Assembly: GCF_016097555.1 (NCBI RefSeq)
Contig: NC_054706.1
Coordinates: forward strand, 25,994,736-26,058,735
From: Gigantopelta aegis
Lineage: Eukaryota > Mollusca > Gastropoda > Neomphalida > Peltospiridae
Reading direction: 5' to 3'
DNA length: 64,000 nt
In this document: positions 1 through 56,834 of the stretch, in pieces
Layout: every line of letters starts with the position of its first letter
Numbering within the stretch: the first letter of the stretch is position 1
Program-made: the position numbers and the translations under genes
Notes under the pieces: model-generated
Database searches by the model: none
Told to the model about the DNA's origin: nothing
The model's input: the letters and a program-made list of their open reading frames with translations, nothing else

Positions 1-95
1 CAGGTAATCATTTACTGTTTCACAATAACAGGTAATTATTAACTATTTCACAATGACAAGTAATCATTTACCGGTTCACAATGACAGGTAAGTAT
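1..95 (+). repeat. End of intron 1 minisatellite (28-bp unit), cut by window edge
   Basis: About three and a half copies of a 28-bp unit, of the form TTTCACAATGACAGGTAATC plus a short AT-rich spacer. The same array follows exon 1 at 46,933 and 54,957, so the window begins inside intron 1 of the choline transporter. The last unit reads ACAG followed by GTAAGTAT, a stronger donor consensus than the other units. Confidence 0.9.
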
Positions 96-6600: not shown

Positions 6601-9600
6601 AAAAACCCAAAACAAACACAACAACAACAACAACAACAACAACCAACAAACCCCCCCAAAAAAAAAAAAAAACCCCCAACAAAAAACACACAGGAAAACA
6701 TAAACAACCCCAACCCCAAACAACAACAACAACAGCGACAGCAGCAGCAGCAACAACAACACACACGTACACATAAACACCCATCGGTGATTAGTATTTT
6801 ATAAGGGTATGCCATTGTTATTTCTCTACAGGTGGGTTTTTCTTCGCTAAGAAAATGCGTTTTCGCGAGTACAGCACCATGCTGGATCCGTTCGAGAGGA
6901 AGTTTGGCAGCGTGGTGGCCATGCTGCTCTACCTACCAGCACTGGCCGGCGAGATATTCTGGTCTGGAGCCATACTCAACGCACTGGGTGAGTATTGGGT
7001 GAGAACTGTATTAGTACCAGGTGAGTACTTGTTGAGTACTGCTTGAGCACTGGTTGATAACTGGGTGAGTACTAGTTGAGTACTGGGTGTGTACTGGTTG
7101 ACAACTGGGTAAGCACTAGTGGAGCACTGGTTGAGTACTAGGTGAGCACTGGGTGAGCACTGATGGAGTACTGGGTGACCACTGAGTGAGTACTGGGTGA
7201 GCACTGGTTGACAACTGGTTAACAACTGGGTGAGCACTGGTTGACTATTGGTTGAGCACTGGTTGACAACTGGGTGAGTACTAGTTGACTACTGGGTGAG
7301 TACTAGTTGACTACTGGGTGAGTACTAGTTGACTACTGGGTGACAACTGGGAGACTACTGGTTGAGCACTGGTTGACAACTGCGTGAACACTGGTTGACA
7401 ACTGGGTGAGCACTGGTTGACAACTGGGTGAGCACTGGTTGACTACTGGGTGAGAACTGGTTGAAAACTGGGTGAGTACTAGCTGACTACTGGGTGAGTA
7501 CTAGTTGACTACTGGGTGAGCACTAGTTGACTACTGGTTGAGCACTGATTGACAACTGCGTGAGCACTGGTTGACTACTGGGTGAGTACTAGTTGACTAC
7601 TGGGTGAGTACTAGTTGACTACTGGGTGAGTCCTAGTTGACTACTGGGTGAGCACTGGGTGACTATTGGTTGAGTACTAGTTGACTACTGGGTGAGTACT
7701 AGTTGACTACTGGGTGAGTACTAGTTGACTACTGGGTGACTATTGGGTGAGTACTAGTTGACTACTGGTTGAGTACTGTTTGACAAATGGGTGAGCACTG
7801 GTTGACTACTGAATGAGTACTATTTGACTACTGGTTCAGCACTGGGTGACAACTGCATGAGCACTGGTTGACAACTGGTTGAACACTGGGTGACTACTGG
7901 TTCAGCACTGGTTGGCAACTGCATGAGCACTGGTTGACAACTGGGTGAGCACTGGGTGACTACTGGTTGACAACTGCGTGAGCACTGGTTGACTACTGGT
8001 TGAGCACTGGTTGACAACTCGGTGAGCACTGGGTGACTACTGGTTCAGCACTGGTTGGCAACTGCATGAGCACTGGTTGACAGCTGGGTGAGTACTAGTT
8101 GACTACTGGGTGAGCACTGGTTGACTACTGGGTGAGTCCTAGTTGACTACTGGGTGAGTACAAGTTGACTACTGGGTGAGTACTGGTTGACAACTGGGTG
8201 AGTCCTAGTTGACTACTGGGTGAGTACAAGTTGACTACTGGGGTACTAGATGACTACTGGGTGAGTACTAGGTGACTACTGGGTGACCACTGGTTGACAC
8301 CTGGGTGAGCAGTGGTTGAGAACTGGGCGAGTACTAGTTGACTACTGGGTGAGTACTAATTGACTACTGGGTGAGTACTAGTTGACTACTGAGTACTGGG
8401 TGAGTACTAGTTGACTACTGGGTGAGCACTGGGTGACTACTGGTTGACAACTGCGTGAGCACTGGTTGACTACTGGGTGAGTACTAGTTGACTACTTGGT
8501 GAGTACTAGTTGACTACTGGGTGAGCACTGGGTGACTATTGGGCGAGTACTAGTTGATCTGACTACTGGTTGAGCACTGGTTGACAACTGCATGAGCACT
8601 GGTTGACAACTATGTAAGTACTGGTTGACTACTGGGTAAGTATTGGTTGACTACTGGGTAAGTACTAGTTGAGCACTGGGTGGATTTGTTCTATTTTAAG
8701 CTGTTACTCCTGGACTACAGCTTTTGACGAGTACATTGATTGTGGTTTGGTTTTCACCAGGTGGTACGCTGGCGGTCATCCTCGACCTGCAGATGAGCAT
8801 CTCCGTGATCATCTCGGCGGCCATCAGCCTCCTGTACACGCTGGCGGGCGGACTCTACTCCGTCGCCTACACCGACGTCATCCAGCTCATCCTCATGTTT
8901 ATAGGACTGGTAAGTAAACGTTTGGTTTGTTTAACCTCACCACTAGGGCACATTTATTTATCAATCATCGGCCAGTGGATTTCAAGCATTTGGTAATTTT
9001 GATAAATAGTCTTAGAGAGAGAATCCGCTACAGTTTTCCATTAATAGCAAGGGATGTTTTATATGATTCATCTAACAGACAGTATAGCACACGCCAGTCA
9101 TGGCGCACTGGCTGGTATGAGATATAGCCCAATGGGTCCACCGACGGGGATCGATCCTAGGCCGACCAAACATCAGGCGAGCTCTTTACCACTGGGCTAC
9201 GTCCCGCCCAGGCTAGTAATTCACCGAGACACCAGAATCGGTGGTGTAGTGGTTGAGCTATCGGACATAAGACTGGTAGGTACTGGGTTCGTATCTCGGT
9301 AACAGTATGGGGGTTGGTAAGTGATTGACTCATGGTATAAAAATAGGAAATGACCTGTATAGGGACAACAATATATAAAAATGAATACAATTGTTAAGTG
9401 CACTATTAATGAGCGTACTGATATTAAATATACATCTATATAAATACGACCCTATTTTGTTTTGGATGTCTTTATTAGTATCACCCATATGGTTAAAAAT
9501 ATCTCGGTACATATCAAAGTGATACGCAAAATGGGAGGTAACTCCTCGACGTCACACGATGACAATATTACAGGAACGTCAACCAAACGAGTTGACTGAT

Positions 9601-10593
9601 ATAATTTAAAGGGACAGACCCTAGGATCAACCCGTGAAAATTAACACTAAGTTTAGTTAATCTACAAACTGGTAACACATTTGCATAAAGTTACGATTGA
9701 GTAAAACATGAGTCTGTGACTTTGAAATGGTGAAATACCCTCTAAAATAGACTAAAACTCCACAACTGTTACTTCTTATACGCACATGCGTTTTTAAAAA
9801 TATGAGAAATGCAGTTTGTGATGTTAAAAACACCAGGATGACCAAAAACACTTCGAATGTACGGAAATTGATAATCTAAACCACAAAATCTTAATAAAGT
9901 ATGATTTCAGTTATTAAAAACGGCTATAATAGTCAAAAATATACCTTAGTGTTTAAAACCTACGGTGATGTCCCTTTAAGATCGACCATGGGTAATAAAC
10001 ATGATATTAAACTAGCTACCATTTCGCATCATGTTTATGTCCATCGTGAAATAATGTTCATTGTCACTCGCTAAACTGAAAATTATTTCATTCGGGAGAT
10101 AAACATGATACGAAATTAAAGTTCGTTTAATATCCTATAATGAATACACTGTTTATGTTTAATTAAATTTTAGTGGCTGAGTATTCCATTCGCTTTGACG
10201 AACGACAACGTGCCGGCTATCACCACCAACTCCAGCGCTGTGTGGGTTAAAGAGCTGACGACTGCAGACATCGGAGTTTACGTTGATACAGGGTTACTCC
10301 TCATTTTTGGTGGAATTCCATGGCAGGTAAGACGCAATTTCCGACTAGAATACCTTTGAAGTGTACTGTTTTCAGTAACCTCACGGACATGTCCATGGAT
10401 AAATGTCTTCTGATGTCACAGCCTACTGTAAACATGATATGTCATCAAGGCAAATGAATTGAAGAAGCAATGCAGAAAAATAACATTTATTTATTTTTTA
10501 ACCATTATTTTCCATGTCAAGGATTACTAGTATTTAAATCTCCCCCCGAACCACTCCTGCTTTTTCTGTATCTGTCTGTCTGTAGGTTAGTTA

Positions 10594-10635
<42 letters not shown>

Positions 10636-13600
10636 CCTCCCTCTCTCCCCCCTCTCTCTCTATCTCCCTCCCTACACAGGCTCTCTCTCGGAGTCTCTTG
10701 ATCTCTTACTCCTCTCTGGGATTCTCTCTCGCAATCATCCAGTCTCTCTCTCCTTTAAAAATGTAGCAATGTTCAAACACTTGAAAGGTGGTGTGGTGGA
10801 TTGTCGCAGAAATAATGTTCCCATACATTTCAACAATGTTCGTTGGTCTGCGGTGATATAAACGAGCTTTTTCTGGGAACCAGCTAGACTCTACCAAGTG
10901 GCTGCGTTGCTCGGCCTCCTGAAAATGAGTCGTCCGCCAAGCAGCCAGCGGGAAAGCAGTAGGGGCTGGATTTATGAAGCCTGTTTTTCTTAAACGCAGG
11001 TGTTTAAGCATTGTAAATGTATGTAGTTACAAGCAAGTAAGACATAAACAGGCTTTGTAAGTTCACGTGTTGGTGTATATGTCCTAAATGTAACAGTCGG
11101 ACTACACGCACGCACCGCATCCAGTCTATATGAGCCTTTAACAATTGCGCTGGGTTCAGCCAACCAGAGCTGAAAAACGTTCGCTAGAGTGGTTATATAC
11201 GCTTCACCTTAAACACTGGAACTACGCGGGGAACCAGTCAAATAATTCGCGACATTTGCTGAACACAGGGTGAATCACTCAGTTACTGCCATTTTCCAAC
11301 GTCTATGCATAAGCTTACGAGGGGGGGGGGGGGGCAGGGCAGGGGGCAATGGGCAACATCCACCCTAGTGCTGGAGCAAATCCTCAAATTCGGGCAAAAA
11401 TTAAACAGACATTCGGCAAAAACGTGCTTACCTGAGACCTCTTTATCATGTACTTCGATCATTCTACCCTCAAAATTAGGTGTAATCCATGTAAAAATCC
11501 TCTTTGGTAGTAATGCTAATATGAATAAATGTTGCTATCCAGATTCGGGCACTATGTCTTAATTCGGGCCAAAGCCAGCTTCCCCCTGCTAATATAAAAT
11601 CTGTTAAATATTCCTTCTAATTATTTGGTTATATATGTTACATGAAAACCATTTCTCCCATGTTTTTCCAAAGGTTTATTTTCAACGAGTGTTGTCAGCA
11701 AGAAGCCCGTCTGTGGCGCAGGGTCTGTCCTTCGTTGCCGCCTTCGGCTGCGTTGCCATGGCAATACCAGCAGTACTTATAGGAGTAATAGCTGCTGAAG
11801 CAGGTATGACGTATCTGTGTACTCTAGTGTTAAACACAATACACTTTTAACTTTATATTTGTTTATAAAAAAGTACACGCTATTTCACGGCTGTCGGAAC
11901 TAGAGCAGAAGAAATGGGAAACATTTGCCCTCTCTTTAACTCCAACTATTATATATAATTATTATATAGGCCTCACTTAAAGGAACCGAATGTAGATCCA
12001 TTCGTAACCAAGAGCGGATTGTAGAACCAAGGTACCACCTAGTTTAACGTAACTGGCAAAGGAAGGAAATATTTTATTTATTTAACGACGCACTCAGCAC
12101 ATTTTATTTACGGTTAAACGGCGTCAGACATATGGTTAAGGACCACACTGATATTGAGGGAGGAAACCCACTGCAGCCACTTCATGGGCTACTCTTTTCG
12201 ATTAGGAGCAAGGGATCTTTTATATGCACCATCCCGTAGACAGGATAGAACATACCACGGCCTTTGATGTACCAATCGTGGTGCACTGGCTAGAGCGAAA
12301 AATAGCCCAATGGGCCCACCGACGGGGATCGATTCCAAAACGACCGAGAGCGCTTTACCACTGGGCTACGTTTCGGCCCTAACTGGCCAAGGAGGGGGTG
12401 GGTGGGAGAGGGTGGTGGTTGTGGTGGTGGTGGTGGCAGTGGATTAGTGAAGACAAACGGCGCTTTTAAACTATACAATGATGTGTCTTCGTGCTGTGCC
12501 GCATGGTGGCCTTTGGAACAGCCAACGAAAAGGGTTGGAAAGCAAAACCTCTTCCATGTATAATAAATGCACTTTTTAAATGATGATTTCATCTCAAATT
12601 TGATCAAGCGAACAGATATTTCTCATTTTGTTTCCACAGAATAACGTTACCCTGCATTCACCGCGATAATCTCTGGTTTATTTATGACGTTCGTACTATC
12701 CCTTACACACGAAGGTATCCGACCAGTAATATCGTCCCCACCCTACCTCACGGATAATACAGACTGTCACAAAAGAGCTCTTATGCACAAAGGCAGGCTC
12801 TTCACCCCCCCCCCCCCCCCCTCCCTCCCAGCACTTTACTCTCTTATTATTCTTCCATTTTGTTTTCTAAACTATAAACATTATAATAATTATTATTGCT
12901 GTCATCACTGTTTTGTGTGTTTTTCCCCCACAGACTGGACCAAGACAGAATACACTGGTGACATCCACAACAATACGGAGCTGGTCCTGCCACTGGTTCT
13001 GCGATATCTCTGTCCCAGCTGGGTAGGAGTTATCGGCCTTGGCGCCGTCTCTGCCGCTGTCATGTCGTCGACGGATTCGTCCATGTTGTCTGCCAGCTCC
13101 ATGTTTGCCAACAACGTGTTTTGTCCCATATATAAATTATGCATGTCCAAGATGGTAAGTTTTTAATAATATAGTCTTACAAAAGGCATTAGTGTCTAGA
13201 TCGCCCGAGACGAGATGATTCATCATCACAGGCCTCGGTGGTGTCGTGGTTAAAAGCCATCGGGCATAAGGCTGGTAGGTACAGGGTTCGCAGCCCAGTA
13301 CCGGCTCCCACCCAGAGCGATTTTTAACGACTCAACGGGTAGGTGTAAAGCCACTACACCCTCTTCTCTCTTACTAACCACTAACAATTAACAACTAAGC
13401 CACAGTCTTGGACAGACAGCCCAGATAGCTGTGGTGTCGTGTGTGACTACTACACCCTTTTCTCTCTCACTAGCCACTAACCAACTAACAACTAACACAC
13501 TGTCTTGGACAGACAGCACAGATAGCTGAGGTGTGGTGTGTGACTACTACACCCTCTTCTTTCTCACTAGCCACTAACCAACTAACTACTAACACACTGT

Positions 13601-15691
13601 CTTGGACAGACAGCACAGATAGCTGAGGTGTGGTGTGTGACTACTACACCCTCTTCTCTCTCACTAGCCACTAACCAACTAACAACTAACCCACTGTCTT
13701 GGACAGACAGCCCAGGTAGCTGAGATGTGGGTGTGTGTGTGACTACTACACCCTCTTCTCTCTCACTAGCCACTAACCAACTAACAACTAACCCACTGTC
13801 TTGGACAGACAGCCCAGATAGCTGAGGTGTCGTGTGTGACTACTACACCCTCTTCTCTCTCACTAGCCACTAACCAACTAACAACTAAGCCACTGTCTTG
13901 GACAGACAGCCCAGATAGCTGAGGTGTGGTGTGTGACTACTACACCCTCTTCTCTCTCACTAGCCACACGAAAATAATTTGAAATGAAATGATTCATCAT
14001 CATCAGTTATTATTTGTTTAACGTAGCAACACTTAGTTGTAAATTACATTATAAACCGCATATATCCACGTATTTATTTATACAGATTGTGGAAAAACAA
14101 CAAAAAACTTGGTTCGATCCAAAAGTTGAACGTAAACTATATAATATAAGCATCTATAAGAAAATAACAACAACAACAACACTACGTTAACAACCATGCC
14201 ACTACCACTAGTTTAACGACCACGACACTACCACTACTTTACCACCATACCACTACCACTACTTTAACATCCACGACACTACCACTACTTTAACAACCAC
14301 ACCACTACCACTACGTTAACAACCATGCCACTACCACTACTTTAACATCCACGACACTACCACTACGTTAACAACCACACCACTACCATTACTTTAAAAA
14401 CCACACCACTACCACTGCAGTTTCACATCCACGTCACTACCACTACGTTAACAACCACGCCACTACCACTACTTTATAAACCACGCCACTACCATTACTT
14501 TAACAACCACACCACTACCACTGCAGTTTCACATCCACGTCACTACCACTACGTTAACAACCACGCCACTACCACTACTTTATAACCCACGCCACTATTA
14601 CTTTAAAAAACACACCACTACCACTACGTTAACAACCACGCCACTACCACTACTTTATAAACAACGCCACTACCACTACTTTATAAACCACGCCGCTACC
14701 ATTACTTTATAAACCACGCCGCTACCATTACTTTAAAAACCACACCATTACCACTACAGTTTCACATCCACACCACTACCACTACTTTATAAACCACACC
14801 ACTACCACTACTTTAACAAGCACGACACTACCACTACACCACTACAGTACTTTAACGTCCATGTCGCTACTACTAGTTTAACCGCCACGCCACTACTACT
14901 ACCACCGTCTAAACACTACTACCACTACCAGTACTTTAACGTCCATGTCACTACTACTAGTTTAACCGTTACGCCACTACTACTACTACCGTCTAAACAC
15001 TACTACCACTACCAGCACTGAGTTTGTGGGGTTTTGTTTGCAGCCGTCTGGAACGATATTGGTGTGGATCATGCGACTGATGCAGGTGGTTCACGCCGTG
15101 TGCTCCTGCGTCCTGGCTCTTGAGTACCAGTCCATCTACGTGCTCTTCTACCTGTGCTCCGACCTCGTCTACGTGATGCTGTTTCCCCAGCTCACCTGCG
15201 CCATGTACCTGAAAGACTCCAACACGTACGGGTCACTGGCCGGCTTCGTTACCGGCCTCCTGTTTCGGATCCTGGGCGGCGACAGTGACCTGCACATAGA
15301 TTCCGTCATCAAGTACCCGTGGTACACCGAGGCAAGCGGACAGCGGTTCCCCTTCAAGACAATAGCCATGCTCATCTGTATGTTTACCATCATCATTGTG
15401 TCGTACATCGCCAAGTTTCTGTTCGAATATGGATGCTTGCCCAGGTATATGGACATCTTCAACTGCTTCCCGCCGCCTCTCTTGCAAGTCACTGATGAAC
15501 CACCTGACATAGACGAAGAAGGGATTCCGGCCGCTGTTCACCAGCAGCCTTCCTATCATAATCCAATGTACCAAGCCTACCCAGAGGAAACCGCTGTGAC
15601 AACCATGCCACAGTATCAGCCAGAAAGTAAAACCGATATCCCCAGTTCACGGAAATCCCATATTACTAAAATTGAAGTGAAAAAGATTTAA
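534..15691 (+). CDS. SLC5A7: High-affinity choline transporter (CHT1-like), exons 2–8 of 8
   Basis: Seven exons joined by GT–AG introns encode a sodium- and chloride-coupled choline transporter of the SSS/SLC5 family, the step that supplies choline for acetylcholine synthesis at cholinergic terminals. I recognise the family from whole-length similarity: [16 protein letters not shown] (exon 2), [12 protein letters not shown] (exon 3), [16 protein letters not shown] (exon 4), [16 protein letters not shown] (exons 5/6), [20 protein letters not shown] (exon 7), [13 protein letters not shown] and [18 protein letters not shown] (exon 8). Exons are 534–641, 6832–6987, 8761–8909, 10174–10326, 11674–11803, 12934–13154 and 15044–15691; all phases agree. 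Exon 1 lies left of the window, but near-identical copies of it occur at 46,771 and 55,918. With that exon the protein is 579 residues, against 580 in human CHT1. A candidate AATAAA poly(A) signal is at 15,889. The transporter core looks intact, with no internal stop. Confidence 0.95.
1345..4190. repeat. Unclassified repeat block bounded by imperfect inverted repeats
   Basis: CAGTTTCACGGGAAAGGTTG occurs forward at about 1,354 and inverted at about 4,162–4,181, enclosing 2.8 kb of AT-rich sequence with no recognisable protein. The motif GTTTAGGAGGGGACATT occurs three times inside (1,904, 3,426, 3,589). The right arm near 52,722–53,595 has a shortened relative lacking about 1.85 kb. It could be a non-autonomous DNA element, but I cannot assign a superfamily. 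Confidence 0.45.
4195..4660 (-). other. GC-rich Pro/Gly-rich remnant related to the block at 51,808–52,720
   Basis: On the minus strand a 143-residue open frame is rich in Pro, Gly and Arg. Its start ([11 protein letters not shown]) and the segment [10 protein letters not shown] are shared with the block at 51,840–52,551. The two loci keep different parts of the middle and end. Flanking sequence is C- and G-run rich. The parent element is not recognised, and both copies look like remnants. Confidence 0.4.
5260..5622 (+). repeat. SINE, tRNA-headed family 1
   Basis: The tRNA-like head has a B-box-like GGTTCGGATCC near 5,288. The body runs through AAAGATCCCTTGCTGCTAAT and the 3' end reads GTTAAATAAAACATTTC with a TTC-repeat tail. 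The same insertion occurs in both arms (partial at 48,535–48,712 and reversed at 50,385–50,745), so it predates the duplication. The 5' head is degraded here. Confidence 0.85.
6268..6562 (-). repeat. SINE, family 2
   Basis: Reverse-oriented copy. The 3' end reads (reversed) AAGTTTGTTTTGTTTAACGA and the tRNA-like head lies near 6,510–6,560 (GGGATC… and GCGCTTTACC). Shared with the left arm at 49,340–49,632. Confidence 0.85.
6590..6780 (+). repeat. C/A-rich low-complexity tract with (CAA)n and (CAG)n
   Basis: Runs of A, C and CAA/CAG triplets just upstream of exon 3. The corresponding sequence in the left arm falls at the N gap, so this tract may be what broke that assembly. Long Gln-, Val- or Cys-rich frames here are artefacts of the repeat. 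Confidence 0.8.
6832..6987 (+). CDS. SLC5A7: Choline transporter exon 3
   Basis: 156 bp, preceded by TTTCTCTACAG. It encodes [20 protein letters not shown] and continues through [20 protein letters not shown]; human CHT1 has FFAKPMRSKGYVTMLDPF and ALMGEMFWAAAIFSALG at the same place. The donor is CACTGG followed by GTGAGT. The last five exon bases already form the start of the first 11-bp unit of the array that fills intron 3. Confidence 0.95.
6981..8682 (+). repeat. 11-bp minisatellite seeded at the exon 3 splice donor
   Basis: About 150 tandem copies of an 11-bp unit, ACTGG(G/T)TGA(G/C)N, often paired into a 22-bp higher-order unit (ACTGGGTGAGT then ACTAGTTGACT). The array is in register with the end of exon 3: ACTGG closes the exon and GTGAGT is the real donor. 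A large share of units therefore repeat a near-consensus 5' splice site. It fills nearly all of intron 3. Confidence 0.95.
8761..8909 (+). CDS. SLC5A7: Choline transporter exon 4
   Basis: 149 bp between TTTTCACCAG and GTAAGT. It encodes [20 protein letters not shown] and then [20 protein letters not shown]; human CHT1 has [20 protein letters not shown] at this point. The acceptor lies only about 80 bp beyond the end of the 11-bp array. Base composition is much more GC-rich than the surrounding intron, as for the other exons. Confidence 0.95.
8917..9212 (-). repeat. SINE, family 2, in intron 4
   Basis: The tail (reversed) GTTTGTTTAACCTCACCACTAG begins right after the exon 4 donor, and the tRNA-like head ends at GGGCTACGTCCCGCCC near 9,212. 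Full length but diverged. A family-1 head fragment, with GGTGTAGTGGTTGAGC and a B-box-like GGGTTCGTATC, follows at 9,237–9,300. Confidence 0.85.
9610..9975. mobile_element. TTAA MITE (family A, divergent copy)
   Basis: TTAA target duplications at 9,606 and 9,976 flank terminal inverted AGGGACA…TGTCCCT. The interior differs from the better conserved copies at 18,771, 27,131 and 43,043. No transposase. Probably a non-autonomous piggyBac-type element on the basis of TTAA targets and short terminal repeats. Confidence 0.7.
10174..10326 (+). CDS. SLC5A7: Choline transporter exon 5
   Basis: 153 bp, acceptor AAATTTTAG and donor GTAAGA. It encodes [20 protein letters not shown] and then a stretch ending [18 protein letters not shown]. 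The loop NTTN-like segment between the helices is variable in the family. The GGIPWQ motif is identical to human CHT1. Phase 0 at both ends. Confidence 0.94.
10596..10770 (+). repeat. (CT)n microsatellite and degenerate CT-rich tract, intron 5
   Basis: About 18 uninterrupted CT units followed by an imperfect CT/CCCT tract. The Ser/Leu-rich frame seen across it is an artefact of the repeat. Confidence 0.9.
11290..11592. repeat. Dispersed repeat with GCGTACG-type ends (copy 1)
   Basis: Starts near CATAAGCTTACGAGGGGG and carries AATTCGGGCAAAA, GGTAGTAATGCTAATATGAA and AGATTCGGGCA. Matching copies lie at 23,575–23,892, 30,945–31,230 (reverse) and 34,950–35,020 (partial). In the best copy both ends carry inverted CATA/GGCGTACG, so a short inverted-repeat element is likely. 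Confidence 0.65.
11674..11803 (+). CDS. SLC5A7: Choline transporter exon 6
   Basis: 130 bp between TTCCAAAG and GTATGA. It encodes [20 protein letters not shown] and then [23 protein letters not shown]; human CHT1 has [20 protein letters not shown] and [20 protein letters not shown]. It ends one base into a codon that exon 7 completes as Asp. Confidence 0.95.
12067..12385 (-). repeat. Chimeric SINE (family 1 tail, family 2 head), intron 6
   Basis: Reversed family-1 tail (ATTTATTTAACGACGCACTC) joined to a family-2 head (GGCCCACCGACGGGGATCGA and CTTTACCACTGGGCTACG). The same chimera recurs at 37,949 and 59,997, so the mosaic is a recurrent subfamily rather than one accident. Confidence 0.8.
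12934..13154 (+). CDS. SLC5A7: Choline transporter exon 7
   Basis: 221 bp, acceptor TTTTCCCCCACAG and donor GTAAGT. It encodes [20 protein letters not shown], then [20 protein letters not shown] and [20 protein letters not shown]. The last block is one of the most conserved parts of CHT1 (human [20 protein letters not shown]). NNT is a potential N-glycosylation site in an extracellular loop by homology. Confidence 0.95.
13229..13360 (+). repeat. SINE head (third, GCCTCGGTGGTGTCGTGG type), intron 7
   Basis: tRNA-like head with GGCCTCGGTGGTGTCGTGGT and a B-box-like GGGTTCGCAGCC. It runs directly into the 97-bp satellite, whose first unit continues the SINE body. Confidence 0.75.
13361..13968 (+). 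repeat. 97-bp satellite derived from a SINE body
   Basis: About six copies with CTTGGACAGACAGCCCAG at 13,407, 13,504, 13,601, 13,698, 13,800 and 13,897. The spacing is 97 bp except for one 102-bp unit that gained a GT run. The unit contains ACTACACCCTCTTCTCTCTC and follows a SINE head, so an internal SINE segment has been amplified in tandem. Confidence 0.9.
14180..15015 (+). repeat. 26-bp minisatellite in intron 7, next to exon 8
   Basis: About 30 copies of a 26-bp unit built on CACGCCACTACCACTACTTT plus AACAAC. The array stops about 30 bp before exon 8. Units near the end lengthen to include CTACTACTACC. Unlike the arrays of introns 1 and 3 it does not contain exon sequence. Confidence 0.9.
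15044..15691 (+). CDS. SLC5A7: Choline transporter exon 8 (C-terminal exon)
   Basis: 648 bp including the TAA stop, after TTTTGTTTGCAG. It encodes the last helices ([77 protein letters not shown]) and a cytoplasmic tail of roughly 80 residues. Human CHT1 has matching [20 protein letters not shown] and FPFKTLAM. The tail shows an acidic stretch [10 protein letters not shown] and the tetrapeptide NPMY (about residues 537–540), an NPXY-type endocytic signal, whereas human CHT1 is known for a dileucine-like internalisation signal. No internal stop. Confidence 0.96.
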   Translation, partial: PSGTILVWIMRLMQVVHAVCSCVLALEYQSIYVLFYLCSDLVYVMLFPQLTCAMYLKDSNTYGSLAGFVTGLLFRILGGDSDLHIDSVIKYPWYTEASGQRFPFKTIAMLICMFTIIIVSYIAKFLFEYGCLPRYMDIFNCFPPPLLQVTDEPPDIDEEGIPAAVHQQPSYHNPMYQAYPEETAVTTMPQYQPESKTDIPSSRKSHITKIEVKKI

Positions 15692-18702: not shown

Positions 18703-18770
18703 TATCCAGTAGTCCCCCTCCACCCCACCCCTCAATTAAAACAACCCAATTTTACCATAATATATATTAA

Positions 18771-19152
18771 AGGGACATTCCTGAGTTGTCTGCAAGTTTT
18801 AAGATGTTATCGACTAACAGAGGCTTTTTTACGACTGTAATTACATATCAAATATATTTTTCTGTATAAAATATTAGTGGCTGTATATTAAACGTGTTTC
18901 TAATCGTTCTAATATTTTTAAAAGGTTAAATTTCATTTTATTTCCTAAAAACTATTTTTTCGTACGTACGAAATTATTTGAAGAAAAAATCCAGTTTGGG
19001 CTTCTTACAAATATTAAGACGACCAGAAACACATTGAATGTACAGATACTGATATTTTAAACAAGAAAATATATTTAATATGTAAATTTAATCGTAGAAA
19101 TATTTTATTTGTCGGAAACATCTTACAATAGAGCAAACTCGGGAATGTCCCT
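18771..19152. mobile_element. TTAA MITE, family A
   Basis: 382 bp with TTAA target duplications at 18,767 and 19,153. The terminal inverted repeats read AGGGACATTCCTGAGTT at the left and are complementary to GGGAATGTCCCT at the right. The whole element is a weak palindrome with CGTACGTACG at the centre. Non-autonomous; piggyBac-type by target site. Confidence 0.85.
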
Positions 19153-20730
19153 TTAAAACAATTCCTCATATAACAGCAGATCAATTACCAATCTTGGGTA
19201 ATTTATAATAAATACTGGCAAGAAATTTTATTATTGCTTTATTGTTATTCTTAGAATTTTCAACTTAATGGTTTCTGTCAGAGGCTACTGAGGTTAAACT
19301 TATGTACCCTAAAATGTTGGAAATTAATAGATATATTTTTTAATGTTTAGATAAATGATAGTAAAAGAACTGCTGTTTATAAATGGTCATGTGCTTGAAA
19401 TGTAATGTCCTAACCCTAATTTCAAAACATTTCAAACCCATAACCACCTATATGAGGCACTCACATCTCTTTTGTTTTTATTACCTACCCTAAATATGAT
19501 TTTCTTTGTTTTTCATCATCATTTTATACCCCAAATTTTGGCAAAGCATAGGCATTTTTCTTCTTCCACATGTCATCTTATATGTAGCTTTGTGCAACTT
19601 TCTAATACAAATCAAATAACATCATCAAAGTTAAATACATTGTTTACTATTTACTGCTATACTTTTAAAATTTTATACTTTGTTTAGTCACACCGATTTT
19701 GTTTCCTGTTAAAAAAATGTTTTCCTAAAATTAAATTAAACTTTAAATTAATACAACGATATATAATTAAGTTACAGACTAATGTACTTCTTCAAATGGA
19801 TGTGAAATACTTAACATGTTTGTTTTTATATATTTCAGCAACTGGACCAATGGATGTGAAGTCATTGATTAGATGTTGAAAATGAGATTCTGAAGACAAA
19901 CTATTAAACAAATTACATTGCATCTTAATATTGAGAACATAATGATAGAAATAATAGAACAGTTTCAACTGATATGTGAAAGAAAAACTGGGGCAGGGGG
20001 TGAAATTGCTGCTGAAAATGAAACACTTTCAACATTTCATTTAATACAATATTCTGTAGGTTTTTTGTGTTTGACATATTGCTGCTAAGGAGTAATTCAG
20101 ACTTCCAAGACGTGGGATTCAGTTTGACACCACCCATCAAATGGTAATCCTTAATTGCTCAGTTGACTGTACAAGTTTCGAGGATTTGGAGATAGATGCC
20201 ACAGAAAGACACATTTTTGAATAAATATATTTACCTGTACCAGACTGCATGGGGATTAATATGTAAAGACCCTCTCTTTGAGAAAAAAGAAAATGTTTGG
20301 AAGTATTCTTATAATAAATATTAAACAAATTGTGCAAACTGCAATCTGTGGTTTAGTTTCATGTTAAACTAGTGTAATATATAATGTTGCCTTTTTTTTT
20401 TTTTTTTTTTTTTTACATACATTTTTTTAATTAAATGTTTATTTTGTATAATTATTATTGTTCTGTAAGCATAGGTTGTCTTATAATATTTAGTTCAAAT
20501 TTTTTATCTGCCTATGCCTCTAGAACAGATAAATCTTTGTGAGTACATGTGCTGACAGTAGGATAACTAATGGGGGGGGGGGGGTGGGGGGGGGGGGGGG
20601 GGGGGGGGGGGTGAGATTGGGTTGTGTGAGCCAGAAGCTTTGTTTGATTTCCAGCAGGTGTTGCCACAACACATGAGTTTATTATTTATTTAATCACTGT
20701 ATTGTACTGGCTTAATTGGCAAATATTTTA
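19153..20730. other. AT-rich intergenic sequence
   Basis: No gene recognised. A poly(T) run is at 20,392–20,414 and long G-runs at 20,571–20,612. Short open frames have no family resemblance. Confidence 0.6.
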
Positions 20731-25960: not shown

Positions 25961-27108
25961 TATAGGTAAGACTATATCAAATAAAATCCCATAGGCGACC
26001 ATGTTAACGTTTGTGTTTAAAAACACTATATGCAATATATCGACGACCAAACTATGACCCATAAATATCAGTACTACAACTCCTACCTCAAAGTATTAAC
26101 TGAAGAAAATGGTACCTTTAATAGCTCATTTTCGGTTTAACCAGATGTTTGTACAACACCCCTAGCTTCGCACAAAATTTGAGTACTTTTTTTTAACAGG
26201 TACCCAATGCATGTTCCAAGCGCAAAGCTACTTGACACAGTGGTACTAGGTGAAAGAAAATTGCATACATTTTTAGCCCAGATGAAACTAATGTTTTTTG
26301 CAACCAACACACATTTTTTGCACAGGTCACATTCGTACGGATTTTTACCGCTTTGAGTTATCGTATGTTCTTTCAACCTGGTGTTGTTTATAAAACATTT
26401 CGAGCACCCTCCACACTTAAATGGTTAACTCCGGAATACCGCATCATCGTGTGCTCCTTCAAACTGCCGCGATGTGTAAAACATTTTGTGCACAGTTCAC
26501 ATTTGAAAGGCTTGTGACCGGTATAAATCAAACATGTGCTGTTTCAAATTCTGCGATCGATTGAAACATTTCGCGCACATATCACATTTGAAAGACTTAG
26601 CACCCGTATGAATCGACGCGTACGGCCCGAGGTGAACACCCTGCGAAAAACATTTCGTGCACTGTCCACGTTTGAAATGTTTTGAACCCGTATGAATCGA
26701 CGCGTGCATTTTCAGCCTGGATTCCACCGCGAAACATTTGGCGCACACCTAGCATCTGAAGGGTTTTTCGCAGCTGTGCATGCGTATGTGTATCTGGATG
26801 TTGCACTTGGTGGAGAAGTCCCTCGAGCACATCCCGCACCTGAAGACCTTCTCCCCGCTGTGAATTATCATGTGGTGAGTCAGACCGCTCCTCTGGGCGA
26901 AGCATTTGTCGCAGATGTCGCATCTGAACGGTTTGGCCCCTGTGTGGGTGAGGACGTGCGTCTTCAGGGTGGAGTGCAATGCGAAACACCTGGAGCACCG
27001 GTCGCAGCAGAAAGGCTTTTCTCCAGTGTGAGTTGTTCGCGTGTGGCGCTGGACGGTGGACTTGGTGGCGAACGTCTTCAGGCACACGTCGCACCTTAAC
27101 GGTTTGTT
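25961..27108 (-). pseudogene. C2H2 zinc-finger gene fragment, decaying, 5'-truncated
   Basis: About ten C2H2 fingers can be traced on the minus strand. Four near the 5' side are intact in one frame: CDVCLKTFATKSTVQRH, CDRCSRCFALHSTLKTH, CDICDKCFAQRSGLTHH and CGMCSRDFSTKCNIQIH, joined by TGEKPF/TGAKPF-type linkers. A TAG stop lies between the cysteines of the fifth finger (about 26,750). Further fingers follow in frame ([17 protein letters not shown]), then frame changes near 26,520 and 26,430 before the last ones ([34 protein letters not shown]). The 5' end runs straight into 18S rDNA at about 27,108, with no start codon. The 3' region 25,961–26,310 is a repeat present three times. A pseudogene is likely, although a short four-finger product from an upstream exon cannot be excluded. 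Confidence 0.75.
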
Positions 27109-27513
27109 TGGTTGCAAAGCTGAAACTTAAAGGGACATTCCTGAGTTTGCTGCAATTTTTAAGATGTTATCGACTAACAGAGACTTTTTAACGATTGTAT
27201 TTACATATCAAATATATTTTTCTGCATAAAATATTAGTGGCTGTGTATTAAACGTGTTTCTGATCGTTCTAATATTTGTACTAGGTTAAATTTCATTTTA
27301 TTTCCTAAAATATTATTTTTTCGTACGTACGAAATTATTTGAAGACAAAATCCAGTTTGGGCTTCTTACAAATATTAAGACGACCAGAAAGACATTGAAT
27401 ATACAGACACTGATATTCTAAACAAGAAACTATATTTAATATGTAAGTTTAATCGTAGAAATATTTTATTAGTCGGAAACATCTTACAGTGCAACAAACT
27501 CGGGAATGTCCAT

Positions 27514-27554
<41 letters not shown>

Positions 27555-42977: not shown

Positions 42978-43515
42978 AATTCCAAATCACTTGTCAATAA
43001 AGATGTTATATTTTGTTGGGTACCCAGCCATGTTGGCATTAAAGGGACATTCCCGAGTTTGCTGCATTGTAAGATATTTCCGACTAATAAAATATTTCTA
43101 CGATTAAACTTACATATTAAATATATTTTCTTGTTTAGGATGTCAGTGTCTATATATTCAATGTGTTTCTGGTCGTCTTAATATTTGTAAGAAACCCAAA
43201 CTGGATTTTGTCTTCAAATAATTTTGTGCGAACGAAAAAAATAATTTTTAGGAAATAAAATGAAATTTAACCTAGTACAAATATTAGAACGATCAGAAAC
43301 ACGTTTATTATACAGCCACTAATATTTTATGCAGAAAAATATATTTGGTATGTAATTAAAGTCGTTAAAAAGTCTCCGTTAGTCGATAACATCATAAAAA
43401 TGGCAGCAAACTCAGGAATGTCCCTTTAAGGATAATGAAAAGGCTGATTCTGCTGCCAAGTCTGCTTTGAATTTGCCACATACCAGTACTGGTGTCCCCT
43501 ACAGTGATTTTCAAA
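42978..43515 (+). mobile_element. LINE RNase H fragment split by a MITE
   Basis: Left part encodes SLVNKDVIFCWVPSHVGIK (to 43,042). The right part from 43,426 continues with DNEKADSAAKSALNLPHTS. VPSHVGI and NEKAD are the conserved C-terminal RNase H block of Jockey/I-type non-LTR retrotransposons. Removing the MITE with one TTAA joins the two parts in frame. The rest of the LINE is absent. Confidence 0.8.
43043..43425. mobile_element. TTAA MITE, family A, inside a LINE
   Basis: 383 bp, TTAA at 43,039 and 43,426. Termini AGGGACATTCCCGAGTTTGC and CAAACTCAGGAATGTCCCT. Orientation is opposite to the copies at 18,771 and 27,131. Confidence 0.92.
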
Positions 43516-44589: not shown

Positions 44590-45300
44590 CATTATCTCGA
44601 TGATCTAAATTTAGACAGGAACTGGCACACTACATCAGCCACACTGTTTTTAACACTTATCTAACGTAACATATTGATACGGTTGAGAACCAGTTAAACC
44701 GCTAGGTTATATTTGTTCTGAAACTTCGTAGTCGTTAGGTTTTTAGGTGTTTAAAACATATATTTTTTTAAATGTTAAAGCTATTGGCATTGTCACGATG
44801 ATCTAAATTTAGAGAAAGTGTCTGGCATACTACATGAGCCACACTGGTTTTAACACTTAAGTTACGTTAAACGTATTGATAAAGTTGGGAACCAGTTAAA
44901 CAGCTCTGCTATTTTCGTATTGAACTTCGTTGATGTTGTATGCTTTTCTTTTTTTCTATCTGCTGACACCAGTTTGGTATTGTGCAATAAAGTGAACTGA
45001 AATTTAATTGAATTAGTCCATAGGTTTTTATGTATTAAAAAAAAAATGAATGTAAAATCGAATATCATATCAAATGTTACTGGCGTTAAAAGCAGAGGTG
45101 AAAACAAAAACACTCTTAATGGATGGCGGACGAGGTGCCAACATGCAGAAAATAACAACAGCTTGTCAAACAAGAAAGAAGCGAATTGTAACTGCCTGGA
45201 AGTGAAACATTCTGCATAAATATAAAAAGTTCCCCTACGTCCTTCCCTCCAGTTAACTCCCCCCCCCCCCCCCTAAAAAAACAAAAACAAAAACAAACAG
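44590..45300. other. Intergenic sequence left of the inverted duplication
   Basis: A segment GAACCAGTTAAAC… occurs twice (44,685 and 44,889) with the preceding ATGATCTAAATTTAGA, a diverged direct repeat of about 200 bp. A C-run is at 45,259–45,273. No gene. Confidence 0.5.
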
Positions 45301-45524
45301 TTCGAAGACTAATTCCTGACGTGACACGTTAGGTATTACGTAACCACCAGCTCGCCAGAGGGCGTATTCACTGGGATGATACAAAATGGCTGCGCCCGTT
45401 ATATATAATAGCCGTCACATTTAACCGTTGTATTAATTAACTATACGATTATACTTGTTAATATTGAGCAATAATGTGCATTATATATCGTTGAATATGC
45501 ATACCAGGTCAAATGCCTTAATGG

Positions 45525-45780
45525 TTCCTTCCTCCATATGTCCGACGTCATATAACCGTAAATAAAATGATAACTGGTGTAACAAAGGCCGTGGTATGTA
45601 GTATCCTGTTTGTGGGATGGTGCATATAAAAGATTCCTTGCTGCTAATCAAAAAGAGTAGTCCATGAAGTGGCGACAGCGGGTTTCCTCGCTCAATATCT
45701 GCGTGGTCCTTAACCATATGTCTGACGCCATATAACCGTAAATAAAATGTGTTGAGTGCGTCGTTAAATATAACATATCC
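45525..45780 (+). repeat. SINE, family 1, rearranged partial copy
   Basis: CATATAACCGTAAATAAAATG appears both before and after the body, and the head is missing. Shared with the right arm at 56,835–57,085. Confidence 0.8.
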
Positions 45781-45792
45781 TTCCTTCATTAA

Positions 45793-46166
45793 AGAGACTG
45801 TCCTGCGTTTGCAGCCATTGTGAGATGTTTCCGACTAACGGAGCCTTTGTTGGTTACTAAAATTACATGTCAAATATAGTTTCTTGATCAGATATCCATT
45901 GTTTTACCGTCGTGTGATAATGTCTGTCGCAGACATTTTTCATTTAACTTCGTATTATTATATATATTTTCGTACGTACGAAATTAGTAGAAGATAAAAT
46001 AAGGTTTCAGCTACTACAAACATTAGGACGACGACAAACTCCTTGTTTATACAGACATTGATATTCTAAACAGAAAAATTAAATTTAATATGCAATTTTA
46101 GTCATAAAATACCTTCGTTTGTCGTGTAAACGTGTTATATTGGCATAAAACTCAGGAAGTTCCACT
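45793..46166. mobile_element. TTAA MITE, family A, degenerate
   Basis: Left terminus AGAGACTGTCCTGCGTTTGC after TTAA, centre CGTACGTACG at about 45,971, right terminus eroded. Shared with the right arm (56,454–56,827). Confidence 0.7.
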
Positions 46167-46184
46167 AAAAAGAAATAATCCTTT

Positions 46185-46775
46185 CCCAGACACATTGTTA
46201 TATTTCCAGGAACCGGTTTACGCGTAACAGACCATAAAGTGTTAATCTAACCACAATGGGAGTCTTCGTGTTACTATTTGCAGCAAACTCAGAACAGATC
46301 CTAACCAATCGTTTTTCGGACACAGTTATATTTTTAAGAACATGGACAGACCATAAAGTGTTAATCTAACCACAATGGGAGTCTTCATGTTACTATTTGC
46401 AGCAAACTCAGAGCAGGTCCTAACCAATCGTTTTTCGGACACATTGTTATATTTTTAGGGACATGGACAGACCATAAAGTGTTAATCTAACCACAGTATG
46501 GGTCTTCGTGTTATAACGACGGCAAACTCAGAATAGTTCCTAAGCAGAGAATCCTTTCCCAGAAACATTGATGTATTTTCGAGAACCCGAACACACTATA
46601 AAGTGTTAATCTAACTACAACGAGGTTCTTCATGTTACGTGACTCGTTGTTATATTTACCAGGAACCGGTTCACGTGCGACAGACAATAGTGTTAAACCA
46701 CAATGGGGGTGCATTGTTATATTTCCAGGAACCGGTTTACCTGTGACAGACCATAAAGTGTTAAACCACAATGGG
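46185..46775 (+). repeat. Tandem repeat upstream of exon 1 containing the start-codon region
   Basis: Six diverged units of 70–125 bp. Each has GACCATAAAGTGTTAA… CACAATGGG…TCTTC, the last being the real exon 1 start (AACCACAATGGGGATCTTCA). Several units also carry an ATG in the same context. Matching array in the right arm at 55,916–56,450. Confidence 0.85.
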
Positions 46776-46945
46776 GATCTTCATCGGCGGTCTCGTGGCC
46801 GTGATCGTCTTCTACATCCTCATCCTGGTCATAGGAATCGTGGCGGCGCGCAGGTCCGGACACTTCTTCACAAACATCGACTCAAAAGAGGTGATGCTAG
46901 CTGGACGCAAGATAGGACTGTTTGTTGGCTGTTTCACAATGACAG
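46771..46945 (+). CDS. SLC5A7: Choline transporter exon 1 (partial extra copy, left arm)
   Basis: 175 bp from ATG to a split Ala codon. It encodes [20 protein letters not shown], then [20 protein letters not shown] and [18 protein letters not shown]. This aligns with the N terminus of human CHT1 ([20 protein letters not shown] and GGRDIGLLVGGFTMT). It contains the first membrane helix. The donor GTAATC is a weak site that starts the 28-bp array. Only exons 1 and 2 of this copy exist before the gap, so it is an incomplete gene as assembled. The protein start is chosen because the homologous N terminus begins here. Confidence 0.92.
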
Positions 46946-47482
46946 GTAATCATTGAGTGATTCACAATGACAGGTAATTATTAACTATTTCACAATAACA
47001 GGTAATCACTTACCGTTTCACAATGACAGGTAATCCTTTACTGTTTCACAATGACAGGTAATCCTTTACTGTTTCACAATGACAGGCAATCATTTACTGT
47101 TTCACAATGACAGGTAATAACTTACTGTTTCACAATGACAGGTAATCTCTTACTGTTTCACAATGACAGGCAACCATTTACTGTTTCACAATGACAGGTA
47201 ATCACTTACTGTTTCACAATGACGGGTAATCTCTTACTGTTTCACAATGACAGGTAATCATTTACTGTTTCACAATGACAGGTAATCATTTACTGTTTCA
47301 CAATGACAGGTAATTATTAACTATTTCACAATTACAGGTAATCATTTACTGTTTCACAATTACAGGTAATCATTTACTGTTTCACAATGACAAATAATTA
47401 TTAACTATTTCACAATGACAGGTAATTATTAACTATTTCACAATGACAGGTAATCATTTACCGTTTCACAATGACAGGTAAG
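46933..47482 (+). repeat. 28-bp minisatellite seeded at the exon 1 splice donor (left arm)
   Basis: About 19 copies. The first unit is TTTCACAATGACAG of exon 1 plus the donor GTAATC. Each further unit repeats those 14 exon bases and the GT. The final unit (47,466–47,482) has GTAAGTAT, the best donor of the array. The right arm has about 28 copies, so copy number differs. Confidence 0.95.
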
Positions 47483-47752
47483 TATATAAAAAATAGCTAT
47501 AAATATGATCTTTTATACAGGAATAAATGAATGATGAATGATTTAAAGAAAGGTGAGTGGAAAAAAATGAGTGAATGAAAGAATGAATGAGTAAATGAAT
47601 GAATGAATGAAATAATGAATGAATGAACGAATACATTAATTTTCCTCTATTTTTTATATCAGCGTCACGGGTCGGTGGAGAAAGAATGAAAGAACGAATG
47701 AACGAAAGAAAGAACGAATAAATCCTGTATTTTTCTCGTATTTTTGTTTCAG

Positions 47753-47860
47753 CGACATGGGTCGGTGGCGGCTTCATCAACGGATCAGCGGAGGCTGTGG
47801 TCAAAGATGGGTTGGTGTGGTGCCAGGCGCCACTCGGATATGGCATCGCCCTCATGTTCG
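47753..47860 (+). CDS. SLC5A7: Choline transporter exon 2 (extra copy, left arm)
   Basis: 108 bp, apparently identical to 534–641, with the same TTTTTGTTTCAG acceptor and GTAAGT donor. In frame with exon 1 at 46,771. Downstream exons 3–8 are not present before or after the gap. Confidence 0.93.
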
Positions 47861-48534
47861 GTAAGTTTCTTACTAATTAAAGCAGCAATGTCGGGAATAC
47901 GTTTTTAAATCATTGACACTAATTCCAGAGTTATCTACCTTCTTAAAACCTCTGTACAGCGTATCTGATTCAAATGAACAGCTTTTTTTTTTTCCTTAGA
48001 ATATTTAGGTGTTTATGTACATCCAATGTAAGCTCACAGTTTCTTGATTAGTATATATCCATGTATACACATCCAGTGTAAACTCACAGGCTTTTTATTA
48101 GTATATATCCATGTATGTAATCCAGTGTGATCTGTGTCATCCTAATGTGTTTAGCGGAGGCGAATCCAGGGTTTTGTAGGGGGTTTGGGGCACACAATTC
48201 TAAAAAAATTGGAGTTTACTGAAGGCAAATGAGCTCAACTCCCAAAGGGAGCGAGATCTGTTAGGGATCTGTTAGGGTATTCTGGGGCATGCTGCCCAGA
48301 ATTAAAAAAAACAAAACAAAAAACATGCTCAGAATCGCGTTTTCAGGGCATCTTGTACATGTATATTGTGGATGCTGAATTAAAAAAAACCCCGTCAAAG
48401 TCATTAAATGAGGGCACGTCAACAGACCTAGGGGCGGGTGGATCACGGAACTCCCGTGACCCCACCCCCTAGATCCGGGTTCGGGTAAAGTTTTAACGTG
48501 CATATATGCCACGAGAGCTTCACGCACGCCTATC

Positions 48535-48715
48535 ACGGGAAGCGCAAATAAAAGATCCCTTGCTGCTAATCGGAAAGAGTAGCCCATGTAGTGGCGACAG
48601 CGGGTTTCCTCTCAAAATCTGTGTGATCCTTAACCATATGTCTGACGCCATATAACCGTAAATAAAATGTGTTGAGTGCGTTGTTAAATAAAACATTTCT
48701 TCTTCTTCTTCATCA
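48535..48715 (+). repeat. SINE family 1, 3' half, at the deletion junction
   Basis: Begins at AAGCGCAAATAAAAGATCCC, directly joined to sequence that in the right arm lies at about 53,595–53,610, so one end of the left-arm deletion lies inside this SINE. Confidence 0.8.
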
Positions 48716-49339
48716 TCATGGGCTGTAAGAAAAGACAATGGTGGGCAATCGATCATCGTGTTTACATTAAATGTTTAGTATAGCAATTTTGGACATCACG
48801 TTTCGTATCATACGCCATTTTAAAAGTAAAGCAAATATTAAAATGAAAATTGTACTATCAACAGGCCTATACAACACAATAAGCTGTTCTGCACTGCATA
48901 CTTTTCGGCTATTCAACTTCAAAAAGTGGACTTAAAACAAAAGAAGACAAAAGTGTCCGCTAGGTTCATATTCGACCCTCCCCCAGATGTAAATTACGCT
49001 ACGCCCCTGTACATTAATTTTTTTATTTTTTTTTTGTCATTTTTATTACAATCGAACTTAGCATATGTTATGCACCTAATTCGTAAAACGAATACATGAT
49101 TTGTGAAAAGATGAGGCGCGGAGGAGGTACTGGGGTACGTGTTAACTGGATTAGTGCCATATTGTCCTACACGTGAACGAAGCACGATGTTGTTGGCGTG
49201 TAGTTCGTCACCAAAGAGGCTGGGGCGGTCCCACTATCCTACAACAAGAAGAAACCAATCAGAAATATCCTGAACACTCCCAACTCTCCCTCCAAAAACC
49301 TCCACAACAACAAACAAAACAAAACAAAACCCAAAACAA

Positions 49340-49632
49340 CAAGTTTGTTTTGTTTAACGACACCACTAGAGCACATTGATTTATTAGTCATCGGCTATTG
49401 GATGTCAAACATTTAGTAATTTTCTTAGAGAGGAAACCCGATACATTTTTCTATTTGTAGTAAGGGATCTTTTATATGCACCATCCCACAGGTAGGATAA
49501 CACATATACCATTGGGGTTTTTTATATACCAGTCGTAGTGCACTGGTGGAAACGATAAATAGCCCAATGGACCCACCGACGGGGATCGATCTCAGACCGA
49601 CAGCGCATCAAGTGAGCGCTTTACCAAAGCAA
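49340..49632 (-). repeat. SINE, family 2 (left-arm copy)
   Basis: Same insertion as 6,268–6,562 with a few differences. Confidence 0.9.
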
Positions 49633-49679
49633 CACAGAAGACCGGCCACACAAACAAATACCCCCCTAAAAAAACAACT

Positions 49680-49879
49680 NNNNNNNNNNNNNNNNNNNNN
49701 NNNNNNNNNNNNNNNNNNNNNNNNNNNNNNNNNNNNNNNNNNNNNNNNNNNNNNNNNNNNNNNNNNNNNNNNNNNNNNNNNNNNNNNNNNNNNNNNNNNN
49801 NNNNNNNNNNNNNNNNNNNNNNNNNNNNNNNNNNNNNNNNNNNNNNNNNNNNNNNNNNNNNNNNNNNNNNNNNNNNNNN
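49680..49879. other. Assembly gap (200 N)
   Basis: Exactly 200 N. The two flanks are reverse-complementary versions of intron 2 sequence, so two contigs meet here in opposite orientation. Confidence 0.99.
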
Positions 49880-50384
49880 TGACGAACTACACGCCAACAA
49901 CATCGTGCTTCGTTCATGTGTAGGACAATATGGCACTAATCCAGTTAACACGTACCCCAGTACATCCTCCGCGCCTCATCTTTTCACAAATAATGTATTC
50001 GTTTTACGAATTAGGTGCATAACATATGCTAAGTTCGATTGTAATAAAAATGACAAACAAAAAAAGAAAGAATTAATGTACAGGGGCGTAGCGTAATTTG
50101 CATCTGGGGGAGGGTCGAATATGAACCTAGCGGACACTTTTGTCTTTTGTTTTAAGTCCACTTTTTGAAGTTGAATAGCCGAAAAGTATGCAGTGCAGAA
50201 CAGCTTATTGTGTTGTATAGGCCTGTTGATAGTACAATTTTCATTTTAATATTTGCTTAACTTTTAAAATGGCGTATGATACGAAACGTGATGTCCAAAA
50301 TTGCTATACTAAACATTTAATGTAAACACGATGATCGATTGCCCACCATTGTCTTTTCTTACAGCCCATGATGAAGAAGAAGAA

Positions 50385-50745
50385 GAAGAAGAAATGTTTT
50401 ATTTAACAACGCACTCAACACATTTTATTTACGGTTATATGGCGTCAGACATATGGTTATGGATCACACAGATTTTGAGAGGAAACCCGCTGTCGCCACT
50501 ACATGGGCTACTCTTTCCGATTAGCAGCAAGGGATCTTTTATTTGCGCTTCCCACAGGCAGGATAGCACAAACCATGGCCTTTATTGAACCAGTTATGGA
50601 TCACTGGTCGGTGCAAGTGGTTTACACCTACCCATTGAGCCTTGCGGAGCACTCACTCAGGGTTTGGAGTCGGTATCTGGATTAAAAATCCCATGCCTCG
50701 ACTGGGATCCGAACCCATTGCCTATCAGCCTGTAGACCGCTACAT
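50385..50745 (-). repeat. SINE, family 1 (right-arm copy of 5,260–5,622)
   Basis: Reversed, same position within intron 2 as the copy at 5,260; tail (TTC)n. Confidence 0.88.
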
Positions 50746-51395
50746 AATGACATACACTTAGAAGAACTTCATTTCTTAGAGTGCTATTTTTGCCCTCAAC
50801 CTGTCGAGATTTCATCTTTTTTTCCAATTAAAAATTCTACTAATGTGAAATTATCCGCATGACCACTGTCTGTCGGCTTTCTTGGAGAGACGGTCGCATA
50901 TTGGATAGTCTATAGAATTGCAGTTGGGGACATAAAAAGGAAATGTTGGAGCAAAGATAATACTCGAAGAAATTGTTTTTAGTTTAGAATTTTTAATTTT
51001 TTTTTTTAAGTTGCGTGACGTCACAGGGGCTATTCTCTTCTTCGAAGGTAGAAAGAAAGGAAACCCGCTTTTCTTGTTTAATCTCTACATAGGCTACTGT
51101 TTGTATATTCGTCAGTGTGAAAACAATATCAGTGGCGGATCCAGAAAATCCATTTAGGGGGTCCCAATGACATGAGGCTAAATGCCAAGGGAACTTTGGG
51201 GGAGGTTTGGAGGGGGATCGTAAAAAAATGAAAATTAATATATAATAAAATATGTAACTGTTGCAAATTTAGGGTGGCCTGGGCCCCTGCCCGCCACTCC
51301 CAGATCAGCCTCTGAATATTGGTTAGATACCATCATGGCCATTCAGTACAAAACATCAAACGGTCACTCGAATTTTCTTCAGTCTCTATACATTG

Positions 51396-51790: not shown

Positions 51791-51807
51791 TCTATACATT
51801 GGCGGAT

Positions 51808-52720: not shown

Positions 52721-52721
52721 A

Positions 52722-53595: not shown

Positions 53596-53647
53596 TATGC
53601 GTGAAGCTCTCGTGGCATATATGCACGTTAAAACTTTACCCGAACCC

Positions 53648-56450: not shown

Positions 56451-56453
56451 TTT

Positions 56454-56827: not shown

Positions 56828-56834
56828 TTAATGA

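Follow-up and report, generated by a model that had tools for sequence, protein, structure and literature searches.

Our results suggest that intron 3 of a choline-transporter gene may have grown out of its own splice site. Nearly the whole intron is an array of 11-bp units that starts inside exon 3, and this array is likely an exon-edge minisatellite, or 'mirage', expanded from a tandem duplication that spanned the exon/intron junction. The window, by which we mean the whole stretch of 64,000 nucleotides analysed here, is C8:25994736-26058735, and the genome totals 1,149,253,464 bases.

The exons, read by splice signals that were assigned by eye, give an uninterrupted protein of 579 residues, with exon 1 taken from a partial gene copy (copy B). 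A 512-residue part of this protein matches the solved chains of the high-affinity choline transporter 1 (8j74, E 2.1e-158), and exons 3 and 4 match Pfam SSF; by these two matches the gene is identified as SLC5A7. In the exon model, all on the forward strand, exon 2 lies at 534-641, exon 3 at 6832-6987, exon 4 at 8761-8909, exon 5 at 10174-10326, exon 6 at 11674-11803, exon 7 at 12934-13154 and exon 8 at 15044-15691. Exon 1 of the main copy lies upstream of the window start, with its ATG at C8:25993765, and differs from exon 1 of copy B (46771-46945, forward strand) at 2 of 175 nt. Intron 7 also holds arrays (13353-13967 and 14180-15019), one of 97-bp units, which we take to resemble the amplified interior of a SINE, and one of 26/84-bp units, which stops 24 nt short of the exon 8 acceptor. 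Elsewhere in the window, a repeat of about 400 bp occurs at 18767-19163, 27127-27524 and 43039-43430, its copies 92-94% alike where compared and each about 70-73% self-complementary, fold-back-like. On the reverse strand, the translation of an open frame at 26752-27126 shows C2H2 zinc-finger-like repeats.

TRF placed the 11-bp array at 6983-8679/8682 on the forward strand (154.5 copies, score 1179). Unit parsing of 6983-8682 gave 155 units, 149 of them exactly 11 bp, which cover 1,695 of the 1,773 intronic nt (95.6%); the 78 nt outside the array (8683-8760) end in the acceptor. The modal unit, ACTGGGTGAGT, accounts for 21 of the 155 and reproduces the junction exactly, its first 5 nt being the end of exon 3 and its other 6 nt the start of the intron. 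As the original prediction had proposed, the unit is in register with the end of exon 3, sharing exactly five exonic nt (ACTGG, 6983-6987) followed by the donor GTGAGT (TGG|GTGAGT by eye, 6988-6993), and the parsed units bear out its estimate of about 150 copies filling the intron. TGGGTGAGT is present in 24 places in the array, counting the real donor, and in 26 in the whole window, both strands taken together.

Within the array there is a 22-bp dimer structure, which TRF prefers (77.4 copies, score 1598): donor-like units (ACTGGGTGAGT/C) and diverged units (ACTRGTTGACT/A) follow each other in turn. Across nine windows of the array, identity was 0.73-0.89 at a distance of 22 and 0.62-0.73 at a distance of 11, the two values being equal in the first window. 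The array ends are more diverged (mean distance 1.40 and 1.10 over units 1-20, 1.60 and 2.00 over units 141-155), as expected where homogenisation by unequal exchange stops short of the ends. Nine of the twelve inner ten-unit blocks have a mean distance of 0.8 or less; the other three, at 1.0-1.3, are about as diverged as the ends.

How strong is the evidence that the exon shares in the array? Outside it, counting both strands, ACTGG is found at 132 of 124,601 positions and precedes GT in 3 of 7,817 cases, while in the coding sequence it stands at 6 of 1,740 positions, so that the chance of the 5-nt overlap, taken alone, is roughly 0.0004-0.003. Since exon 4 likewise ends in ACTG|GTAAGT, such ends are not rare in SLC5A7. 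The 5-nt overlap alone is thus good but not overwhelming evidence for an exonic share, and what decides the matter is the much stronger case of a 28-bp sister array in intron 1, with 17 of 17 exonic nt. Its first unit takes in the final 17 nt of exon 1 together with the donor, and these 17 nt are repeated exactly in many later units.

This 28-bp arrangement is found in the main copy and in two further copies (B and C) of the gene's 5' part that the window holds. In the main copy, whose 911-bp array begins before the window with 17 nt in exon 1, only the tail is seen (1-91, forward strand). TRF located the others at 46929-47481 (copy B, forward strand) and 54956-55760 (copy C, reverse strand, with its ATG at 55918), each again with 17 nt in exon 1. 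The number of units differs between the three gene copies, which are possibly paralogues or alleles: about 32.5, 19.75 and 28.75 in the main copy, B and C, respectively. The start region of exon 1, including the start codon, is also repeated, with five upstream copies in copy C and five in copy B; the latter (46212-46776, forward strand) consist of 5' leader plus at most 14 nt of coding sequence and end at the real ATG (46771). The view that two introns of one gene carry arrays of the same origin stands in that both arrays hold an exon end plus donor, with the qualification that the main exon 1 lies outside the window. Copies B and C belong to a large inverted duplication of the gene's 5' part (45298-57306; exons 1 and 2 and part of intron 2), whose arms are about 88-97% alike in the longer pieces and meet at exactly 200 N (49680-49879). 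It is probably a scaffold join, either of haplotypes or of a real inverted copy.

We scored junction-spanning duplicates at the 14 boundaries of SLC5A7 against 60 shuffles, with intron 1 taken from copy B. Three boundaries scored above all 60 shuffles: the exon 1 donor (36.0 against a best shuffle of 18.5), the exon 2 acceptor (24.0 against 12.5) and the exon 3 donor (22.0 against 16.5). The exon 2 acceptor lies with two degenerate upstream copies at 308-560 on the forward strand (AG|CG sites at 311 and 430, the real one at 532). Under random seeding, P was 0.002 for at least three of eight clusters and 0.037 for at least two, from a cluster list that was partly chosen after looking.

According to the paralogues, the exon 3/intron 3 junction existed before the array. 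The same Ala-Leu-Gly stretch is split by an intron in L036, L037, L039 and L040, four paralogous loci whose donors, assigned by eye, are GTAAGA, GTAAGA, GTAAGT and GTACAG, respectively, and in none of the four did TRF list an array across this junction; L037 has a two-copy 24-bp repeat that starts 29 nt into the intron. On this comparison, the junction predates the 11-bp array. In addition, the protein aligns without gaps to the solved CHT1 chains over both the exon 3/4 and the exon 1/2 junctions. Given the same-codon intron in the four paralogous loci, intron 3 does not occupy a new position of the kind that intron gain by tandem duplication would create.

Another possible origin is a satellite or an element-borne minisatellite, a copy of which landed at the donor, the match to the exon being a coincidence. 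Three arrays with similar 11-bp units (ACTGGTTGAGT) do lie on the same contig near C8:4.95-5.11 Mb, away from known exons, two of them with the same 3' flank. However, the diverged-unit pattern, with at least 10 matches, was found at those three places among the matches listed and not at many unrelated ones, and the ACTGGTTGAGT arrays mix 11- and 14-bp units, whereas 11 bp is the length of 149 of the 155 units in intron 3. Their flank was not found beside the intron 3 array, and such an origin would leave the 28-bp sister array unexplained. We consider it highly improbable, and we rejected a satellite or transposon insertion as the source: the best outside matches are few in place and differ in unit mix and flank.

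An array seeded by a donor contains many potential donors. With U1 letters entered by hand and a generic energy model, 44 of the 183 GT sites in the 11-bp array reach a U1 pairing energy of -9 kcal/mol or lower, and 25, the real donor included, match U1 at least as well as the exon 3 donor. One is better: the in-array site CAG|GTGAGT at 7021-7026 (forward strand), the strongest U1 match of the array, at -11.9 kcal/mol against -10.1 for the real donor. Its use would lengthen exon 3 by 33 nt in frame, adding 11 residues. The frame is kept by only three of the 183 GT sites (6988, 7021 and the weak 7036) and broken by 42 of the 44 strong donors, that is, by all but 6988 and 7021. Translation continued past exon 3 would end at a stop after 19 codons, and past exon 1 of copy B after 3. 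Copy B's 28-bp array has 32 GT sites, of which the first alone is in frame, and its strongest donor (CAG|GTAAGT, 47478) belongs to the last unit. As nearly all array donors break the frame, a working gene would need the outermost donor, or 7021, to win. This raises the question of how the spliceosome chooses the first among some 25-45 near-equivalent donors when nearly all the others break the protein.

Could the array be there for a function, as a set of decoy U1 sites, as a guard against premature polyadenylation or as the source of an 11-residue insertion through 7021? U1 sites at least as good as the exon 3 donor are dense (14.7 per kb, compared with 0.17 per kb in introns 2 and 4-7), and the strongest donor is one of the three that keep the frame. 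About half of the units have nevertheless lost the donor consensus at column 6 (T in 74 and G in 67 of 149), and the strong donors are, with the two exceptions given above, frame-breaking. The folding of the first 300 nt (6983-7282) was unremarkable (z -1.89, 7 of 200 shuffles as good). The suggestion that a dense run of U1-like sites acts on transcription or polyadenylation gained no support: AATAAA and ATTAAA are absent from the array, but intron 7 and copy B's 28-bp array lack them as well. A functional array thus appears improbable.

To place SLC5A7 in context, we analysed 48 other loci that were not chosen for arrays, 18 of choline-transporter paralogues and 30 of chaperonins, with 96 exon edges. 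Exon-edge arrays recur in both groups, and the SLC5A7 case is not special to one gene. Among the paralogues, tandem copies run across the exon 2 acceptor in L038 (50 bp, 20.8 copies) and across both edges of an exon 5-like exon in L035, and exon 7-like donors are spanned by different units in L030 (66 bp, 23.7 copies) and L031 (55 bp). Among the chaperonins, L061 has a two-copy donor duplication of 158 bp, and L071 an acceptor array (86 bp, 5.5 copies) with two acceptor-like copies per unit. Three further loci show arrays close to exons. In L065 (1231-1501, reverse strand) a 34-bp array of 8 copies starts at a chaperonin exon donor, with an unclear exonic share. In L039 (1164-1496) a 29-bp array of 11.6 copies, made of pyrimidine-tract-plus-AG units, ends beside the exon 3 acceptor. 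In L041 arrays adjoin an exon 8-like match that is part of a 3,304-codon open frame.

These loci bear on a different cause for the same anatomy, namely that exon edges are preferred seeds, with transcription or splicing (U1-bound nascent RNA, R-loops, pausing) raising the rate of tandem duplication. This reading is compatible with what the array looks like and differs from the best explanation in its cause. In its favour, besides the three edges in one gene, a seed-based null (56 arrays, 96 edges) gave 7 arrays across exon edges where 1.96 were expected (P = 0.004); this count retains L031, whose match ran into the intron but whose exon-end copies are present in the sequence. Likewise, 9 of the 96 edges had a spanning duplicate (5 of 36 in the choline-transporter paralogues, 4 of 60 in the chaperonins), compared with 3.9% of intronic control points when arrays are collapsed (P = 0.013). 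Note that edges were tested in a single direction but intronic points in both, an asymmetry in favour of the points. Inspection, applied to the edge hits alone and not likewise to the control points, reduced the nine to seven (P = 0.08) by dropping L074 (a pyrimidine run) and L065 (which starts at the donor, with a doubtful exon share). In the run with shuffles, spanning duplicates were present at 10 of 95 edges and at 23 of 188 intronic points; L024 scored 22.5 there and was below threshold in the 9/96 test.

Against a preference for edges, the raw intronic points were hit more often (334 of 2,069, 16.1%), so that the 96 edges of the 48 loci show no excess over the raw rate. Most of the signal comes from the choline-transporter paralogues, the chaperonins alone giving 2 of 60 edges after inspection (P = 0.44). 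A placement null gave 4 observed and 4.35 expected, with no excess, but it is uninformative for long arrays, as an array of at least 1 kb in a 3-kb locus can hardly avoid an exon. Exon edges are thus not spared and may be somewhat enriched, with a mild excess at best. As for a mechanism that amplifies exon 3' edges together with donors, acceptors are duplicated too (exon 2 of SLC5A7, L035, L038, L071), and a dedicated mechanism targeting exon edges is not established. We therefore regard preferred seeding as unlikely. The broader proposal, that splice junctions are hot spots of tandem duplication in this lineage, with splicing- or transcription-coupled intron growth and a 7021 isoform carrying the 11-residue insertion, seems to us equally doubtful. 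What the data offer is a single assembly in which junction seeding of tandem duplications can be tested against other DNA.

A junction-spanning duplication, tolerated through use of the outermost site, suffices as an explanation. A short tandem duplication would by chance have spanned the exon 3/intron 3 junction, taking in 5 nt of exon and 6 nt of donor. The extra copy would have become intron and been tolerated, because the outermost donor still yields the correct mRNA. Slippage and unequal exchange may then have raised the number to about 155 units, later mostly as the 22-bp dimer, with the edges escaping homogenisation. Intron 3 would in this way have grown from its own splice site, copies of which would make up about 96% of it, and like events may have happened at further edges of SLC5A7 and in other genes of this repeat-rich genome. 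We infer the neutrality of the expansion, the order of these events and the normal use of the first donor.

Finally, we compared SLC5A7 with known systems. A literature search by titles and the starts of abstracts noticed no boundary minisatellites in molluscs. Boundary-spanning units are not reported in the passages on a 27-bp minisatellite in an abalone intron (PMC6905558), on an intron-1 repeat of an earthworm (PMC12783039) or on C. elegans (PMC4039745). For human segmental duplications, the passages describe exon-intron boundaries with internal tandem repeats, which can give rise to introns (PMC2812944). As in SLC5A7, these are minisatellites at the exon-intron boundaries of recently duplicated genes; they create new introns or alternative exons, whereas in SLC5A7 an existing intron would have grown. 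In the Rogers model, as cited in PMC3087553, introns are gained by tandem duplication of AG|GT proto-splice sites. There too a splice signal is copied by tandem duplication, but the outcome is a new intron, and SLC5A7 gained no new position, as its paralogues already have the intron.

The closest likeness is to the 'mirages' of amphioxus, described in the available passages as tandem duplications of exon/intron boundaries that leave splicing undisturbed and vary in copy number (PMC3087553, PMC3902484). They occur in Adh3, the globins BflGb6 and BflGb9, PGBD5 and troponin C (PMC3087553, PMC3902484), with units of 10-72 bp in Adh3 and 150-160 bp in the globins (PMC3087553). Going by these passages, both systems have boundary-spanning repeats at donors and acceptors, short units, repeated splice signals and cluster edges that are not homogenised, although in SLC5A7 three inner blocks are diverged too. 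The SLC5A7 arrays span the boundary (by 5 nt of exon 3 and 17 nt of exon 1), and their units of 11 and 28 bp are within the range reported there. Normal splicing of the amphioxus mirages was shown by RT-PCR, whereas the splice sites of SLC5A7 are read from the sequence. Compared with the mirages as described, SLC5A7 differs in its 155 units of 11 bp, which take up nearly a whole intron, and in the involvement of several boundaries plus other genes. Boundary minisatellites are thus found in a genome that, judging by its size (1.15 Gb) and the look of its repeats, is probably not that of amphioxus or another cephalochordate, both at multiple boundaries of a single gene and in genes unrelated to it.
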